Source: Microgenomates group bacterium (GTDB lineage: Bacteria > Patescibacteriota > Microgenomatia > UBA1406 > GWC2-37-13). Taken from it: a stretch of 64,000 nt of DNA. The position numbers and the translations under genes are program-made. The DNA lies in the NCBI GenBank assembly GCA_029906985.1, contig JARYMT010000001.1:1-64000 (forward strand), in the 5' to 3' direction. The notes beneath the pieces are model-generated. The model was not told the origin of the DNA. It was given only the letters and a program-made list of their open reading frames with translations, and searched no databases. This document shows, in pieces, positions 8,543-31,176 of the stretch. Numbering within the stretch: the first letter of the stretch is position 1; each line of letters starts with the position of its first letter.

Positions 8543-9268
8543 CTAAACCCGTAAATCGCAGATCTGAAATAAAAAATTTTTAAAAATAAGTTTTGTTTTA
8601 ACAATTGGTTTTTGATTGACTGTTTTTTGTTTTTGATAATCTGGATAAAGAGATAGTCTAAATAAAAAATCTTTATAGTTTAATTCCGGATGAAACTGAA
8701 GACCGTAAAAAAATTTTTTGTATCTAAAAGCCTGAATCAGACATCTATGGCTATAGGCCAGATGAAGGCTTTTTTTGGGCAGATTCAAAACCGCGTCTTT
8801 ATGACCTTCGATCGCCAAAAACATAGAATTAAATCCTTTGAATAACGGATCCGCCATCCCTTCTTTGGTTAAATGAATTTTGGTGACACCGGTCTCCGCC
8901 TGTTTTGGAGAAAAATCAACTTTAGCTCCTAAAGATTCTGCCAAAAGCTGATGGCCGAAACAGATTCCCAAAACCGGCGGCTGGTTTTTTTTAATTATTT
9001 TTTTTAACACAAAAACCATTTTTTCTCTTATATTATTAAACCAGAACTTTTTTTCAACGTTGATTTCACCATAACCGGTTTCTCCTAAGCCACCGATAAT
9101 TATTCCTTTTGATTTTCTAGCCAATGATAAAATTTCTTTTGAAGAAATCGTCTCGCTTCCGGCGTTAATGATTTGGATTTGGTTATAAGACAAATCCAAG
9201 CTTTCGTAAAAGCATTTTAACTCATGCCAACCCGATTGGTCTCTGCGAAATTGGATTAATAAAATCAT
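8543..9268 (-). CDS. Class I glutamine amidotransferase-like protein
   Basis: The catalytic triad is intact. From the chosen start these are C103 in the nucleophile elbow GICFGHQ, and H193 and E195 in GLQFHPE. The oxyanion Gly loop GGLGETGYGE is near residue 59-68. At 241 residues it is a stand-alone domain like the GMP-synthase-type GATases that hydrolyse glutamine or gamma-glutamyl amides. The ATG at 9268 is preferred over an in-frame start 60 nt upstream because it overlaps the TGA of the ATP-grasp gene (ATGA), the usual sign of translational coupling. Inference: it supplies ammonia to, or cleaves a glutamyl group for, the pathway of the two upstream genes. No partner synthetase of a known family is adjacent apart from the ATP-grasp protein. 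Confidence 0.85.
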   Translation of the reverse strand: MILLIQFRRDQSGWHELKCFYESLDLSYNQIQIINAGSETISSKEILSLARKSKGIIIGGLGETGYGEINVEKKFWFNNIREKMVFVLKKIIKKNQPPVLGICFGHQLLAESLGAKVDFSPKQAETGVTKIHLTKEGMADPLFKGFNSMFLAIEGHKDAVLNLPKKSLHLAYSHRCLIQAFRYKKFFYGLQFHPELNYKDFLFRLSLYPDYQKQKTVNQKPIVKTKLIFKNFLFQICDLRV

Positions 9269-10767
9269 TTTTGTAAAGATGCTTGTAATGGCGACCGAAA
9301 ACTGATAGAACTTTCCGGCAATCGACAATTTAATCCATCAACCACTCTTTTGATATAATCTGCCACTTCATCATCGGTTAAGGCTGTTCCTTGGTAAGGT
9401 AATAATAATTTTACCGTATAAATTTTCCCGGTTTTTTCTTGTTGGGGATAATTTAAAAAAGTAGTCGCATATGGAAACATCCTCGTTGCTTGCAGTTGGG
9501 CAACAAGCTGATTTAATGCCTTGTTTAAAAGACCGCCTTTGCTTTTTAATTTTAACTCAATGTCCAAAACGGCGGTCATTTCGCCAAAAATCATTCCCGA
9601 AACACTGCTTGCCAAACCAGAAATAGTTGTCCCTCCTTCACGCATATTATAATCATGGATTAAAAAAGTCTGGTTGGTTGGGTCTTGGGGAGAAAAAAAA
9701 TCAATGCTGTATGGACCGAAATAGCCAAACTGATACATTTTTTGGCTAATTCTTCGAGAGGTGTCAATAACTGAGAGTAATTTTTCTTTCGTAAGTCCTA
9801 TTTGGGTTAATTGTTCTTCTGAAGTTGACTCAACCATTACCATCCCCAAATATTGACCATTTTGATCGCTAATCACCCGGCCAACTGAGAAAAAAACAAG
9901 CTCGCCAGAAGGCAATATAAAACCTCTTAAACTAAAATCACCCCAACCATCTTCTTGTTGTCCAAAATCTATAACCTCCTCAACAACAACGTCTCCTGGA
10001 TATAGTTCTCCATCATAAGGAGATTGAAACATGGCATAAATTTGTTCTTTTATTCTTAATTGAAGTTCTAAATCATTAACAGCCACCATATCGGGGTTAA
10101 CCCTAACATTTAGCAATCCGCTAGCAGTGTTTCCTAATTTTATTAATAACCTTTTATCACTTTCCCTACTATATTTTGCGACCTCTTGATAAATTAAATC
10201 TACATAATCTGATAATTCTTGACCTTGATAAAAAATTTCTATTCCTGGTACGATATTGCCTGATAAACTAATTTCTCTTAACAATTTTCTCATCCGGGCC
10301 TTGTTGTTAAATTTTTCTGCCGGTGGCAAAGAATTACCTTTGTGTGTTTCATAAAAATTGTTTGAGCCAATAAAAGGATAATAAAAAACTCCTGGTTGTT
10401 GTTGAGAATAATCACCAATTATAATTGTCGGTGAAGGAATGCCTAGATTTTTCCACAGCTCTTGCCAAAATTGTTGTTCAGCAGGCAACAACGGCTCATC
10501 CAAAATTACTCCCCTCGGAAATTGAGGAATTAGGGCGGTTGATATACCAATCATTCGGCCTTGATAGGCAGAGGGTGGCGCGCCATGGGCGGTCAACGCT
10601 GGTCTAACCGCCTCCGGCAGGGCATCTTCGATATTTCCTTGGTAAACTACTTGATCATAACCAGCTTTTTTTAACCAGTCAAAAAATTCTTGACCGACCA
10701 TCTGTCTTCTTTCACGGTCGGTTTGGTGTAATAAATAAGTTTCATCTTCCCTTCTTCTTGCTTCCAT
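9265..10767 (-). CDS. ATP-grasp ligase-like protein (pre-ATP-grasp/PGM1-like)
   Basis: 500 residues. The C-terminal half reads as a divergent ATP-grasp fold: NNKARMRKLLREI (lid-helix region), KRLLIKLGNTASGLLNVRV (ATP-binding Lys strand), DVVVEEVIDFGQQ, then FGYFGPYSIDFF and HDYNMREGGTTISGL, which look like the Mg/ATP-binding D/N-x-R end of the domain. The order resembles peptide ligases of the pheganomycin PGM1 type, but this is a memory-based similarity. ATP-grasp enzymes join a carboxylate to an amine or thiol through an acyl-phosphate. It overlaps the methyltransferase upstream by 26 nt and the amidotransferase downstream by 4 nt, so the three genes form one coupled operon. The substrate is unknown. 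Confidence 0.65.
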   Translation of the reverse strand: MEARRREDETYLLHQTDRERRQMVGQEFFDWLKKAGYDQVVYQGNIEDALPEAVRPALTAHGAPPSAYQGRMIGISTALIPQFPRGVILDEPLLPAEQQFWQELWKNLGIPSPTIIIGDYSQQQPGVFYYPFIGSNNFYETHKGNSLPPAEKFNNKARMRKLLREISLSGNIVPGIEIFYQGQELSDYVDLIYQEVAKYSRESDKRLLIKLGNTASGLLNVRVNPDMVAVNDLELQLRIKEQIYAMFQSPYDGELYPGDVVVEEVIDFGQQEDGWGDFSLRGFILPSGELVFFSVGRVISDQNGQYLGMVMVESTSEEQLTQIGLTKEKLLSVIDTSRRISQKMYQFGYFGPYSIDFFSPQDPTNQTFLIHDYNMREGGTTISGLASSVSGMIFGEMTAVLDIELKLKSKGGLLNKALNQLVAQLQATRMFPYATTFLNYPQQEKTGKIYTVKLLLPYQGTALTDDEVADYIKRVVDGLNCRLPESSISFRSPLQASLQK

Positions 10768-11587: not shown

Positions 11588-11611
11588 TAAAAAAACCCGC
11601 CTTGCGGCGGG
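11588..11611 (-). terminator. Rho-independent terminator B (module B) before the methyltransferase
   Basis: On the minus strand the hairpin CCCGCC-GCAA-GGCGGG (11611-11596) is followed by a run of T (11595-11588). It lies directly upstream of the methyltransferase ATG, so it looks like an attenuator. Its 5' arm with neighbours (TCTCCCGCC, 11614-11606) is exactly complementary to the tail of small ORF B (GGCGGGAGA, 11648-11640). Confidence 0.8.
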
Positions 11612-11635
11612 AGAAATTAATAAATTTATAATCAA

Positions 11636-11701
11636 CTACTCTCCCGCCATAATGGCGAAAAAAAGGATTAAAAAACTGATAATTAAAAATGTTTGAAACA
11701 T
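11636..11701 (-). CDS. Small ORF B: 21-residue hydrophobic peptide
   Basis: The ATG at 11701 opens 21 codons beginning MFQTFLIISFLILFF and ending with TAG. It is almost entirely hydrophobic, like a leader peptide or a type I toxin of the Ibs kind. Its last codons contain CGCCATAATGGCG (11645-11657, self-complementary) and a 9-nt stretch complementary to the 5' arm of terminator B. The ORF/terminator geometry is the same as in module A upstream, which supports its being a real functional unit. No protein family is known to me. Confidence 0.5.
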   Translation of the reverse strand: MFQTFLIISFLILFFAIMAGE

Positions 11702-11766
11702 AATTTAAAATTCAAAAGTCTAAATGATAATTTTAAAATCAAAATTTACTAACTTTTATAATCCAA

Positions 11767-11790
11767 TAAAAAAACCTCCCTTTCGGGAGG
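11767..11790 (-). terminator. Rho-independent terminator A (module A)
   Basis: Minus-strand hairpin CCTCCC-GAAA-GGGAGG (11790-11775) followed by a T run (11774-11767). The segment CATCCTCCC (11793-11785), which includes its 5' arm, is perfectly complementary to GGGAGGATG (11837-11829) at the end of small ORF A. Confidence 0.8.
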
Positions 11791-11822
11791 ATGTTTTTTA
11801 AAATTTTTTTCGGTTTTATTTT

Positions 11823-11894
11823 TTATATCATCCTCCCGCCGCTTAAGATGCGGATAAAAAGGAGAATGATGATAAATAAAACCGATTGACTCAT
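11823..11894 (-). CDS. Small ORF A: 23-residue hydrophobic peptide
   Basis: The ATG at 11894 opens 23 codons starting MSQSVLFIIILLFIRIL and ending in TAA. The peptide is a single hydrophobic helix with a short polar tail. Its final codons carry a 9-nt sequence able to pair with the 5' arm of terminator A. A TAAAAT-like -10 lies shortly upstream, so the mRNA would have almost no leader. It could be a regulatory leader peptide, a type I toxin-like peptide or a small membrane peptide. Confidence 0.5.
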   Translation of the reverse strand: MSQSVLFIIILLFIRILSGGRMI

Positions 11895-29488: not shown

Positions 29489-30664
29489 TTACCTAGTGAC
29501 TTGATATGATCTAACTTTTTTTAAAAGCTCTCTTGCCTCTGGGTTTTCTTCGAAATGCCTGCGGACCGGGGCGATCAAACGATCAATAAGGTTAACGGCC
29601 GTGGTTTTTAGATCCAGCGGGTGAATCTCTTTATTGACGAATTTTCTTTCAAGATCTTGAAATGAGTTGAGAGTGACATTACCACCAAATTTTTGCGGAC
29701 GTTCGATGACGATATGATTAATTTTTAGACGATCGAGGCTCTCAAAAATTATATATTTATAATATTCTAAAATTGGATTTTCGTCTAATACTCCTTCAGG
29801 ACAATAAGCTTTATTAATTTTTCGCTCAATATCTTCTTTCGTATCCGTCATAAAAATTGCTGAATCAGGATGAGATTTTGACATTTTTAAGGCAATTACT
29901 TTTTCGGTTTTGGAAAGCGAAGATACCTTTTTTGAGACAATCGCCTGGGGTCCCTTTGGGGTGAGGCGGTCGGAAAAAACGGTATCAAGCTTTCCAACCG
30001 AAGAATTTAATCCCATCAGCATATGATGGCTGACAACAACCGGTTTCCATCCGCCAGTTGGCGGATCAAGCTGTAACCCAATCTCCCGCGCCAACATATT
30101 AACTTTTCTCTGATCCATTCCCAGTTGACAAATTTTTGCCCCTAAATAAAAAATATCTGCTACCTGCATACAAGAATAAATGATCATGGCGCCGGTTAAT
30201 TTATCAAGTGATTCTTCTCTGCCCATAATTTCAGCCGTCCGTATAAATCTTCGTAAAGCATTGGAGCGGCCAACCTTAATTACCAATTCCCAGTATTTCG
30301 GATTTTTTACCAAGTCTGACGCCCAGACAAACTCAACGTTTTTTAAATCCATTCCGCAGGCCTTCCAAACCTCAATAAAATACCTGCCAACTGTCTGGAT
30401 TTTTTCCAAATCTCCTTCCATCTTGTTATTGGCCATCGCATGCCAGTCAGCCACCAGCATTTTAAACCTTACCCCGGCTTTAATCATTTTGTTAACATTG
30501 ATTGCCCGAAACAGTCCTTGGGCAATATGCATTTGTCCAGACGGTTCAAAACCATCATAAGCCACCAACTCTTCTTCATTTTCCAATAACTTTACCAATT
30601 CTGCTTCTGTCACAATTTCTTCACCGACTTGTTTAATAAGATTTAGACGATCTTGTGTGGTCAT
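29489..30664 (-). CDS. tyrS: Tyrosyl-tRNA synthetase, archaeal/eukaryotic type
   Basis: 391 residues. The KMSKS motif is ALKMSKSHPDS near residue 262. The HIGH-like motif is HIAQG in GFEPSGQMHIAQGL. KVNMLAREI, and the absence of the bacterial C-terminal S4 domain, fit the archaeal/eukaryotic TyrRS rather than the usual bacterial TyrS. It attaches Tyr to tRNA-Tyr. The ATG at 30664 is chosen because TATAAT (30677-30672) lies 7 nt upstream, making the mRNA leaderless; a longer frame would start at a TTG inside the promoter. Confidence 0.95.
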   Translation of the reverse strand: MTTQDRLNLIKQVGEEIVTEAELVKLLENEEELVAYDGFEPSGQMHIAQGLFRAINVNKMIKAGVRFKMLVADWHAMANNKMEGDLEKIQTVGRYFIEVWKACGMDLKNVEFVWASDLVKNPKYWELVIKVGRSNALRRFIRTAEIMGREESLDKLTGAMIIYSCMQVADIFYLGAKICQLGMDQRKVNMLAREIGLQLDPPTGGWKPVVVSHHMLMGLNSSVGKLDTVFSDRLTPKGPQAIVSKKVSSLSKTEKVIALKMSKSHPDSAIFMTDTKEDIERKINKAYCPEGVLDENPILEYYKYIIFESLDRLKINHIVIERPQKFGGNVTLNSFQDLERKFVNKEIHPLDLKTTAVNLIDRLIAPVRRHFEENPEARELLKKVRSYQVTR

Positions 30665-30717
30665 ATAATCTATTATAGACAAAATTTATTTAAATAATAA
30701 CATAAATTACCAACCGG

Positions 30718-31053: not shown

Positions 31054-31076
31054 AAAAAAACCCCGCTTTCGCGGGG
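31054..31076 (-). terminator. Rho-independent terminator C (module C)
   Basis: Minus-strand hairpin CCCCGC-GAAA-GCGGGG (31076-31061) with a T7 tail (31060-31054). The neighbouring small ORF C contains CGCGGGG (31125-31119), complementary to CCCCGCG of the terminator 5' arm. Confidence 0.75.
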
Positions 31077-31104
31077 TCGATTTTTAATAATTGTTATTTA
31101 TCCT

Positions 31105-31176
31105 TTATAAAAAAGGCGCCCCGCGTAAAACAGGGTAAAAGTAAAAAAAGAAATTTTTACTCGCCTTGATTTTCAT
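31105..31176 (-). CDS. Small ORF C: 23-residue aromatic/hydrophobic peptide
   Basis: ATG at 31176, 23 codons starting MKIKASKNFFFYFYPVL and ending LRGAPFL, stop TAA at 31105. TATAAT (31194-31189) with a TTGATT -35 (16-bp spacer) lies just upstream, so the ORF sits at the very 5' end of a transcript that meets terminator C. The layout matches modules A and B, although the peptide sequence is different. Confidence 0.45.
   Translation of the reverse strand: MKIKASKNFFFYFYPVLRGAPFL

Follow-up and report, generated by a model that had tools for sequence, protein, structure and literature searches.

Leader ORF-terminator units in series before a methyltransferase operon of a Patescibacteria genome are probable ribosome-mediated transcription attenuators

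Introduction

The leu and phe leaders of enterobacteria (Rfam families Leu_leader, RF00512, and Phe_leader, RF01859) are composed of a short open reading frame (ORF) with control codons, a set of 1:2, 2:3 and 3:4 hairpins, and a U-run terminator in front of the first gene. The same components occur on the minus strand at positions 11588-11894 of the stretch analysed here (hereafter, the window), which comprises the first 64,000 nucleotides of contig JARYMT010000001.1 of a Microgenomates group bacterium (assembly GCA_029906985.1), but this locus belongs to another phylum, contains two serial units (A and B), and precedes a three-gene operon outside the branched-chain pathway. We regard A and B as two ribosome-mediated (trp/leu/ilv-type) transcription attenuators arranged in series before this operon, and assign a probability of roughly 0.88 to this reading.

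In Staphylococcus aureus, the ilvD attenuator combines an Ile/Leu-rich leader peptide, ribosome stalling, and a choice between terminator and antiterminator (PMC5794164), and Rli60 of Listeria monocytogenes is a branched-chain attenuator whose signal comes from the host environment (PMC5864092). The units described here share with both an Ile/Leu-rich leader in which predicted stalling decides between terminator and antiterminator. However, those systems govern the synthesis of branched-chain amino acids, whereas the operon here encodes a methyltransferase and resides in a genome in which ilvC and ilvD were not found; the antiterminator of S. aureus is also constructed differently. Tandem attenuators have been described for mgtCBR of Salmonella, which was called a singular example and in which mgtM and mgtP answer different signals, ATP and proline (PMC3641672). 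There, as here, one leader contains two short ORFs affecting transcription of the operon, but A/B and three other pairs presented below repeat the same kind of codon, and each unit has its own terminator. Leader ORFs followed by a terminator have also been predicted by genome comparison before trp, leuS, and ilvB genes of Actinobacteria (PMC1262725), which are members of another phylum; some of them have no clear antiterminator, whereas those of A and B extend over 9-10 nt.

The mechanism of a single unit is thus of an already known kind, namely the classical attenuation familiar from leu, ilv, and pheST operons. What is new is the setting in Patescibacteria, the arrangement of same-type attenuators in series, and the occurrence of putative branched-chain sensors apart from branched-chain synthesis. 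Gene regulation in Patescibacteria (candidate phyla radiation, CPR) is little known, and most members have not been cultured and are believed to rely on other cells. No report of attenuators in Patescibacteria/CPR was found in the open-access literature. With attenuators, the amino acid to which a gene cluster responds can be read from the sequence, which supplies a signal for clusters of unassigned function.

Anatomy of units A and B

Each unit consists of a short hydrophobic ORF (23 and 21 aa in A and B, respectively) followed by a terminator (Table 1), as the original prediction had described, and both the coordinates and the 6-bp stems were confirmed. Terminator A reads CCTCCC GAAA GGGAGG TTTTTTT and terminator B reads CCCGCC GCAA GGCGGG TTTTTTT, with perfect stems in both cases, and the T-run of the latter stops approximately 8 nt 5' of the methyltransferase ATG (11581). 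The complementarity between the ORF tail and the terminator 5' arm region, proposed to span nine bases in both units, is exact over 10 nt in unit A (CGGGAGGATG versus CATCCTCCCG) and over 9 nt in unit B (GGCGGGAGA versus TCTCCCGCC). ORF A additionally pairs with bases located 3' of its first half, forming a 1:2 protector hairpin that is absent from unit B. Neither this hairpin nor the codon bias described next was part of the original prediction. The control codons of both ORFs specify almost entirely Ile, Leu, Val, and Phe, and each of the two peptides resembles a single membrane span.

These elements suggest the following mechanism. The ribosome would translate the short ORF while the polymerase makes the leader RNA. 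When the Ile, Leu, and Val tRNAs are charged, the ribosome would arrive at the stop codon and cover the ORF tail (region 2), so that the terminator (3:4) could fold and transcription would stop. With uncharged tRNAs, the ribosome would stall within the Ile/Leu/Val/Phe run, breaking the 1:2 protector in the case of A; the freed region 2 would then pair with region 3, no terminator would form, and the polymerase would read into the operon. If no ribosome were present at all, A would terminate and B is predicted to be read through. Same-specificity tandem units would be natural serial ribosome-mediated gates, and two such gates would be expected to close off the operon more tightly while branched-chain amino acids are abundant.

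A Shine-Dalgarno sequence was found before only 1 of 46 leaders. Its scarcity was rejected as a special trait of the leaders, because in the same (crude) test a Shine-Dalgarno-like motif precedes the first ATG of approximately 2% of the ORFs of at least 150 aa in this genome. Leaders of relatives often begin 6-15 nt past a -10-like hexamer and are hence nearly leaderless.

Predicted switching

Switching was modelled by equilibrium folding of the leader RNA, with a ribosome of an assumed 13-nt footprint stepped along the ORF. The full A leader folds into a long region 1:region 2 hairpin plus the terminator (-43.1 kcal/mol, z -6.0), the leader from codon 14 onward folds as the antiterminator (-22.9), and the leader without region 2 retains the terminator alone (-12.3). 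In unit A, predicted antitermination is limited to stalls at codons 5-15, i.e. the VLFIIILLFI run (codons 5-14) and R15, and termination is predicted at codons 2-4, from codon 16 onward, and when no ribosome is present. In unit B, antitermination is predicted for stalls up to codon 15 and termination for later positions, and the leader is predicted to be read through without a ribosome. The attenuator proposed originally, in which a ribosome finishing the ORF frees the terminator and a stalled one permits the antiterminator, therefore agrees with the folding of both units, but the accompanying statement that an absent ribosome favours the antiterminator applies to B and fails for A, in which formation of the 1:2 hairpin leaves the terminator favoured. 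Across 30 leaders, cognate codons are enriched in the predicted antitermination window (odds ratio 2.1, P 2e-5), and the enrichment persists when the Ile/Leu/Val (ILV) group is omitted (odds ratio 2.3, P 0.003).

Complementarity in the genome and in relatives

Among 44 stringent terminators of the whole genome, A and B are the only ones whose 5' arm region has a complementary upstream stretch of at least 8 nt. We then used a pattern comprising region 2, region 3, region 4, and a T-run at correct spacing, together with a control in which the upstream element was displaced by 100-130 nt. In 60 genomes of the same family, this pattern gave 43 matches (approximately 39 separate places) in 29 genomes versus a single match in the shifted control, and the layout is thus approximately 40-fold commoner than in the distance-shifted control; in 287 genomes from across the phylum, 16 matches versus 0 were obtained. 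The pattern covers one family of arm sequences, and the resulting count of attenuators is therefore a lower bound. Within the arm sequences searched, the layout is common in the family, also occurs in the class, and is rare outside it. Sequences closely resembling unit A are also present in Patescibacteria database records. In relatives, many of the weak matches proved to be ordinary terminators or AT-rich tracts, and loci lacking any part of the layout were excluded. A weak second DNA match in the same genome (C8:160790, L003) was discarded, as it represents an AT-rich likeness without a leader-terminator unit.

The region 2:region 3 duplexes of the loci average -18.6 kcal/mol with their own arms versus -14.9 (sd 0.49) with swapped arms, and none of 20,000 permutations reached the observed value. 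A short ATG-initiated ORF, with its stop located from 5 nt before to 27 nt after the start of region 2, precedes the terminator in 47 of 53 loci (14% at shifted positions), and masking of region 2 leads to a predicted terminator at 47 of 47 loci. The complementarity is thus conserved in homologous loci, the absence of which had been named as grounds for abandoning the original prediction. In a relaxed genome-wide scan of 179 hairpin/U-tract candidates, upstream complementarity was found in 17 versus 11 at -16 kcal/mol; because this is no large general excess, the feature is specific to a few loci.

Leader codons and the downstream genes

The leaders of this class are not uniformly hydrophobic but contain runs of one amino acid or amino acid group, and where the function of the downstream gene is known, it concerns the amino acid sensed. 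An NYSPCSSSSP leader precedes a phosphoglycerate dehydrogenase/SerB fusion, and leaders with RWFYFYFIF, RIFYFTYF, and SSSRR precede DAHP synthase, PheS, and argininosuccinate lyase (ArgH), respectively; an FVLVSILINL leader precedes genes for an aminotransferase and acetolactate synthase, and an HH leader precedes histidine ammonia-lyase (HutH). For ten leader/gene pairs, chosen because the specificity of the gene is known, only 2 of 200,000 permutations matched leader content to genes as well. Such agreement of the leader with the gene behind it is the signature of classical amino-acid attenuation. A second locus of this kind is present in the window itself, where the Phe-Tyr leader MKIKASKNFFFYFYPVLRGAPFL, with CGCGGGG as region 2 and a terminator ending at 31061, precedes a small Cys-rich ORF and the tyrosyl-tRNA synthetase gene (Table 1).

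Two further observations concern these leaders. The His-His leaders (L116 and L120) stand before the degradative histidine ammonia-lyase, which is odd for a starvation-induced gene. In the same genome, near position 115182 of contig C10 (minus strand), a candidate leader-terminator unit with leader MIIRRLQQFIHPYIRNCLKWQCV precedes a protein of unassigned function, with GCGGGGT and ACCCCGC as the pairing segments (duplex -17.4 versus -2.6 in a control stretch).

For A and B, the branched-chain amino acids are the best explanation of the signal, as judged from the leader codons and the relatives. The nearest relatives of leader A (MKNTVLFYIILLFIVLI, MKKMVLFYIILLFIVLV, and MKNQVLFFIILLFIVLV) retain the Ile/Leu/Val content. 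In A-type leaders, the ratio of nonsynonymous to synonymous changes (pN/pS) is 0.11-0.61 in the control codons, which are on this comparative evidence under purifying selection, and codons 2-4 vary freely. Unit A is also matched over the full length of the Leu_leader model (37.6 bits, E 3e-6), and a leader of its type stands before the methyltransferase ortholog of another genus (G076). The amino acid sensed by unit B would be Ile/Leu or Phe.

Tandem arrangement

A second leader-terminator unit of the same codon type was found just upstream in 4 of 50 loci with enough upstream sequence. The tandem leaders, translated by eye from the locus sequences, are ILV followed by ILF in the window, SNCTCTTRL followed by NNCCTTTTRLL (Cys/Thr) at L097, NMYMMK followed by MIMAMM (Met) at L157, and TTT followed by TTTTT (Thr) at L136. 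At L097 and L157, the first T-run and the second ATG lie only approximately 20 nt apart, which is too small a gap for a promoter, and the second leader is therefore expected to be transcribed through read-through of the first alone. The gap before unit B is 66 nt and could contain a promoter of its own.

Alternative explanations

Several points weigh against the attenuator reading of A and B. No strong promoter consensus was found 5' of unit A, and the switching predictions come from equilibrium folding with an idealised ribosome; under the assumed footprint, some relatives (L092 and L107) showed no antitermination window. The Leu_leader score of unit A is below the gathering threshold of 50 bits, and the hydrophobic codon content is partly bound to base pairing in region 1. 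Furthermore, the operon does not encode a branched-chain pathway and is located in a genome without IlvC and IlvD. One competing reading retains attenuation but assigns it to one unit only, the other being a decayed duplicate, or B being driven by its own promoter and hence not serial. In G076, a genome of another genus, an A-type unit alone precedes the methyltransferase ortholog; in G017, a B-like peptide follows an A unit and the terminator is absent; and B, with its default read-through, its missing 1:2 hairpin, and a gap before it that could house a promoter, would suit such a role. However, both the 9-nt antiterminator and the terminator of B remain perfect, its codon run lies inside the antitermination window, and same-specificity tandems recur at three other loci, two of them with only approximately 20 nt between the units. 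We consider this reading unlikely.

The original prediction had offered a second reading, as type I toxin-like RNAs with self-pairing ends. In the form considered here, the product is a small hydrophobic peptide of toxin-like or membrane type, and the complementarity makes the mRNA ends self-pairing. The membrane span-like character of both peptides fits this, and an antisense RNA is conceivable given that promoter-like sites on the plus strand number 7 in a 600-bp stretch versus 2.3 in shuffled sequences. Nevertheless, relatives with the identical RNA layout have leaders rich in Ser, His, Thr, Tyr, Met, or Arg, which fit the function of the downstream gene wherever that is known; conservation does not extend to the C-terminus, the stop falling before or after region 2; and the end of terminator B lies immediately before the methyltransferase start (8 nt), all of which makes the toxin reading very improbable. 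Chance, or a by-product of the reuse of a few GC-rich arm motifs by the terminators of this lineage, would lead one to expect upstream copies, and the modest excess in the relaxed scan (17 versus 11) would agree with this, but the shifted controls are nearly empty, own arms outperform swapped arms, and the ORF, the stop position, and the codon content keep a fixed relation to region 2, with apparent purifying selection on the control codons; an origin of this kind is scarcely credible. Tandem riboswitches and T-boxes before one operon are known, and a ligand or tRNA could in principle bind the leader directly, with the small ORFs being incidental. At the gathering score, however, Rfam identifies only a tRNA in the window, a permissive search ranks amino-acid leader families first, leaders of this length could not accommodate an aptamer, and their codon content predicts the gene, leaving direct binding with almost no likelihood.

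Downstream operon and genome

The genome (953,159 bp, 33% GC, 16 contigs, 98% complete; Patescibacteria) belongs to a tiny bacterium that probably depends on a host. The coupling of the operon behind unit B, which had been noted originally, was verified: the methyltransferase gene overlaps the gene for the 500-aa protein, the stop codon of which overlaps the amidotransferase ATG (9268).

Table 1. Coordinates of units A and B, the downstream operon, and the second attenuator locus of the window
Feature	Coordinates	Strand	Remarks
Leader ORF A, MSQSVLFIIILLFIRILSGGRMI, 23 aa	11823..11894	-	Control codons V5-I14
Unit A region 1, within ORF A	11860..11885	-	RNA fold, z -6.0; partner of region 2 in protector hairpin
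Unit A region 2, ORF tail CGGGAGGATG (11838..11829) and bases after it	11810..11838	-	Partner region 1 or 3
Unit A region 3, CATCCTCCCG	11784..11793	-	Terminator 5' arm = antiterminator 3' arm
Terminator A: 6-bp stem, GAAA loop, seven T	11768..11790	-	Stem 11790..11775
Leader ORF B, MFQTFLIISFLILFFAIMAGE, 21 aa	11636..11701	-	
Unit B region 2, GGCGGGAGA	11640..11648	-	ORF B end
Unit B region 3, TCTCCCGCC	11606..11614	-	
Terminator B: 6-bp stem, GCAA loop, seven T	11589..11611	-	Stem 11611..11596
Gene 1: S-adenosylmethionine (SAM)-dependent methyltransferase, 279 aa	10742..11581	-	ATG at 11581
Gene 2: 500-aa protein	9265..10767	-	ATG at 10767; no family match
Gene 3: class I glutamine amidotransferase	8543..9268	-	ATG at 9268
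Second attenuator locus	31176..31054	-	Tyrosyl-tRNA synthetase operon
Leader MKIKASKNFFFYFYPVLRGAPFL of the second locus	31176..31105	-	
Tyrosyl-tRNA synthetase	29489..30682		

The methyltransferase ortholog of G076 shares 67% identity, and the A-type leader lies directly 5' of it. Searches with the 500-aa protein gave no match in Pfam, NCBIfam, or solved structures, and 71 other genomes of the family contained no relative of it at E 1e-10; it shows weak similarity, 25% across 248 residues, to a protein of 819 aa in G017, which likewise sits behind an ILV leader. An ATP-grasp identity for the 500-aa protein was a guess and is not claimed, given the lack of relatives at E 1e-10 and a structure model, built from a two-sequence alignment, too poor to be used (mean predicted local distance difference test score, pLDDT, 43).

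Ketol-acid reductoisomerase (IlvC) and dihydroxy-acid dehydratase (IlvD) were not found in this genome, and each was detected in 14 of 14 control genomes. IlvD is absent from 12 of the 16 family genomes examined and present in G021, G076, G034, and G004. The occurrence of putative branched-chain sensors in genomes without branched-chain synthesis suggests that failing supply, rather than feedback on synthesis, is sensed. One tentative interpretation, to which we give slightly less than even odds, is that a lineage-wide regulon of amino-acid-specific attenuators has, in bacteria that do not make branched-chain amino acids, been rewired and sometimes serially doubled so as to activate clusters of unknown function when supply from the host or a neighbour fails; these clusters would include methyltransferases, ATP-grasp-like proteins, M20 peptidases, mandelate-racemase-like enzymes, and DUF1177. 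The operon of the window appears to fit the company of the other ILV-leader gene clusters.

Elsewhere in the family, ILV leaders precede large proteins without a clear family, with varied partner genes. The partners encode M20 peptidases at L144, L147, L148, and L151, mandelate-racemase-like enzymes at L090 and L153, DUF1177 at L146, and a protein with a weak circularly permuted ATP-grasp match at L151; PIG-L partners also occur among these clusters (L144, L146-L154, and L090), which possibly represent peptide or amino-acid chemistry not yet known in Patescibacteria. The plus-strand promoter-like sites at 11625-11762 run antisense to unit A and may reflect either AT-richness or an antisense RNA; the best of them (10/12, 11733-11762) lies in AT-rich sequence.
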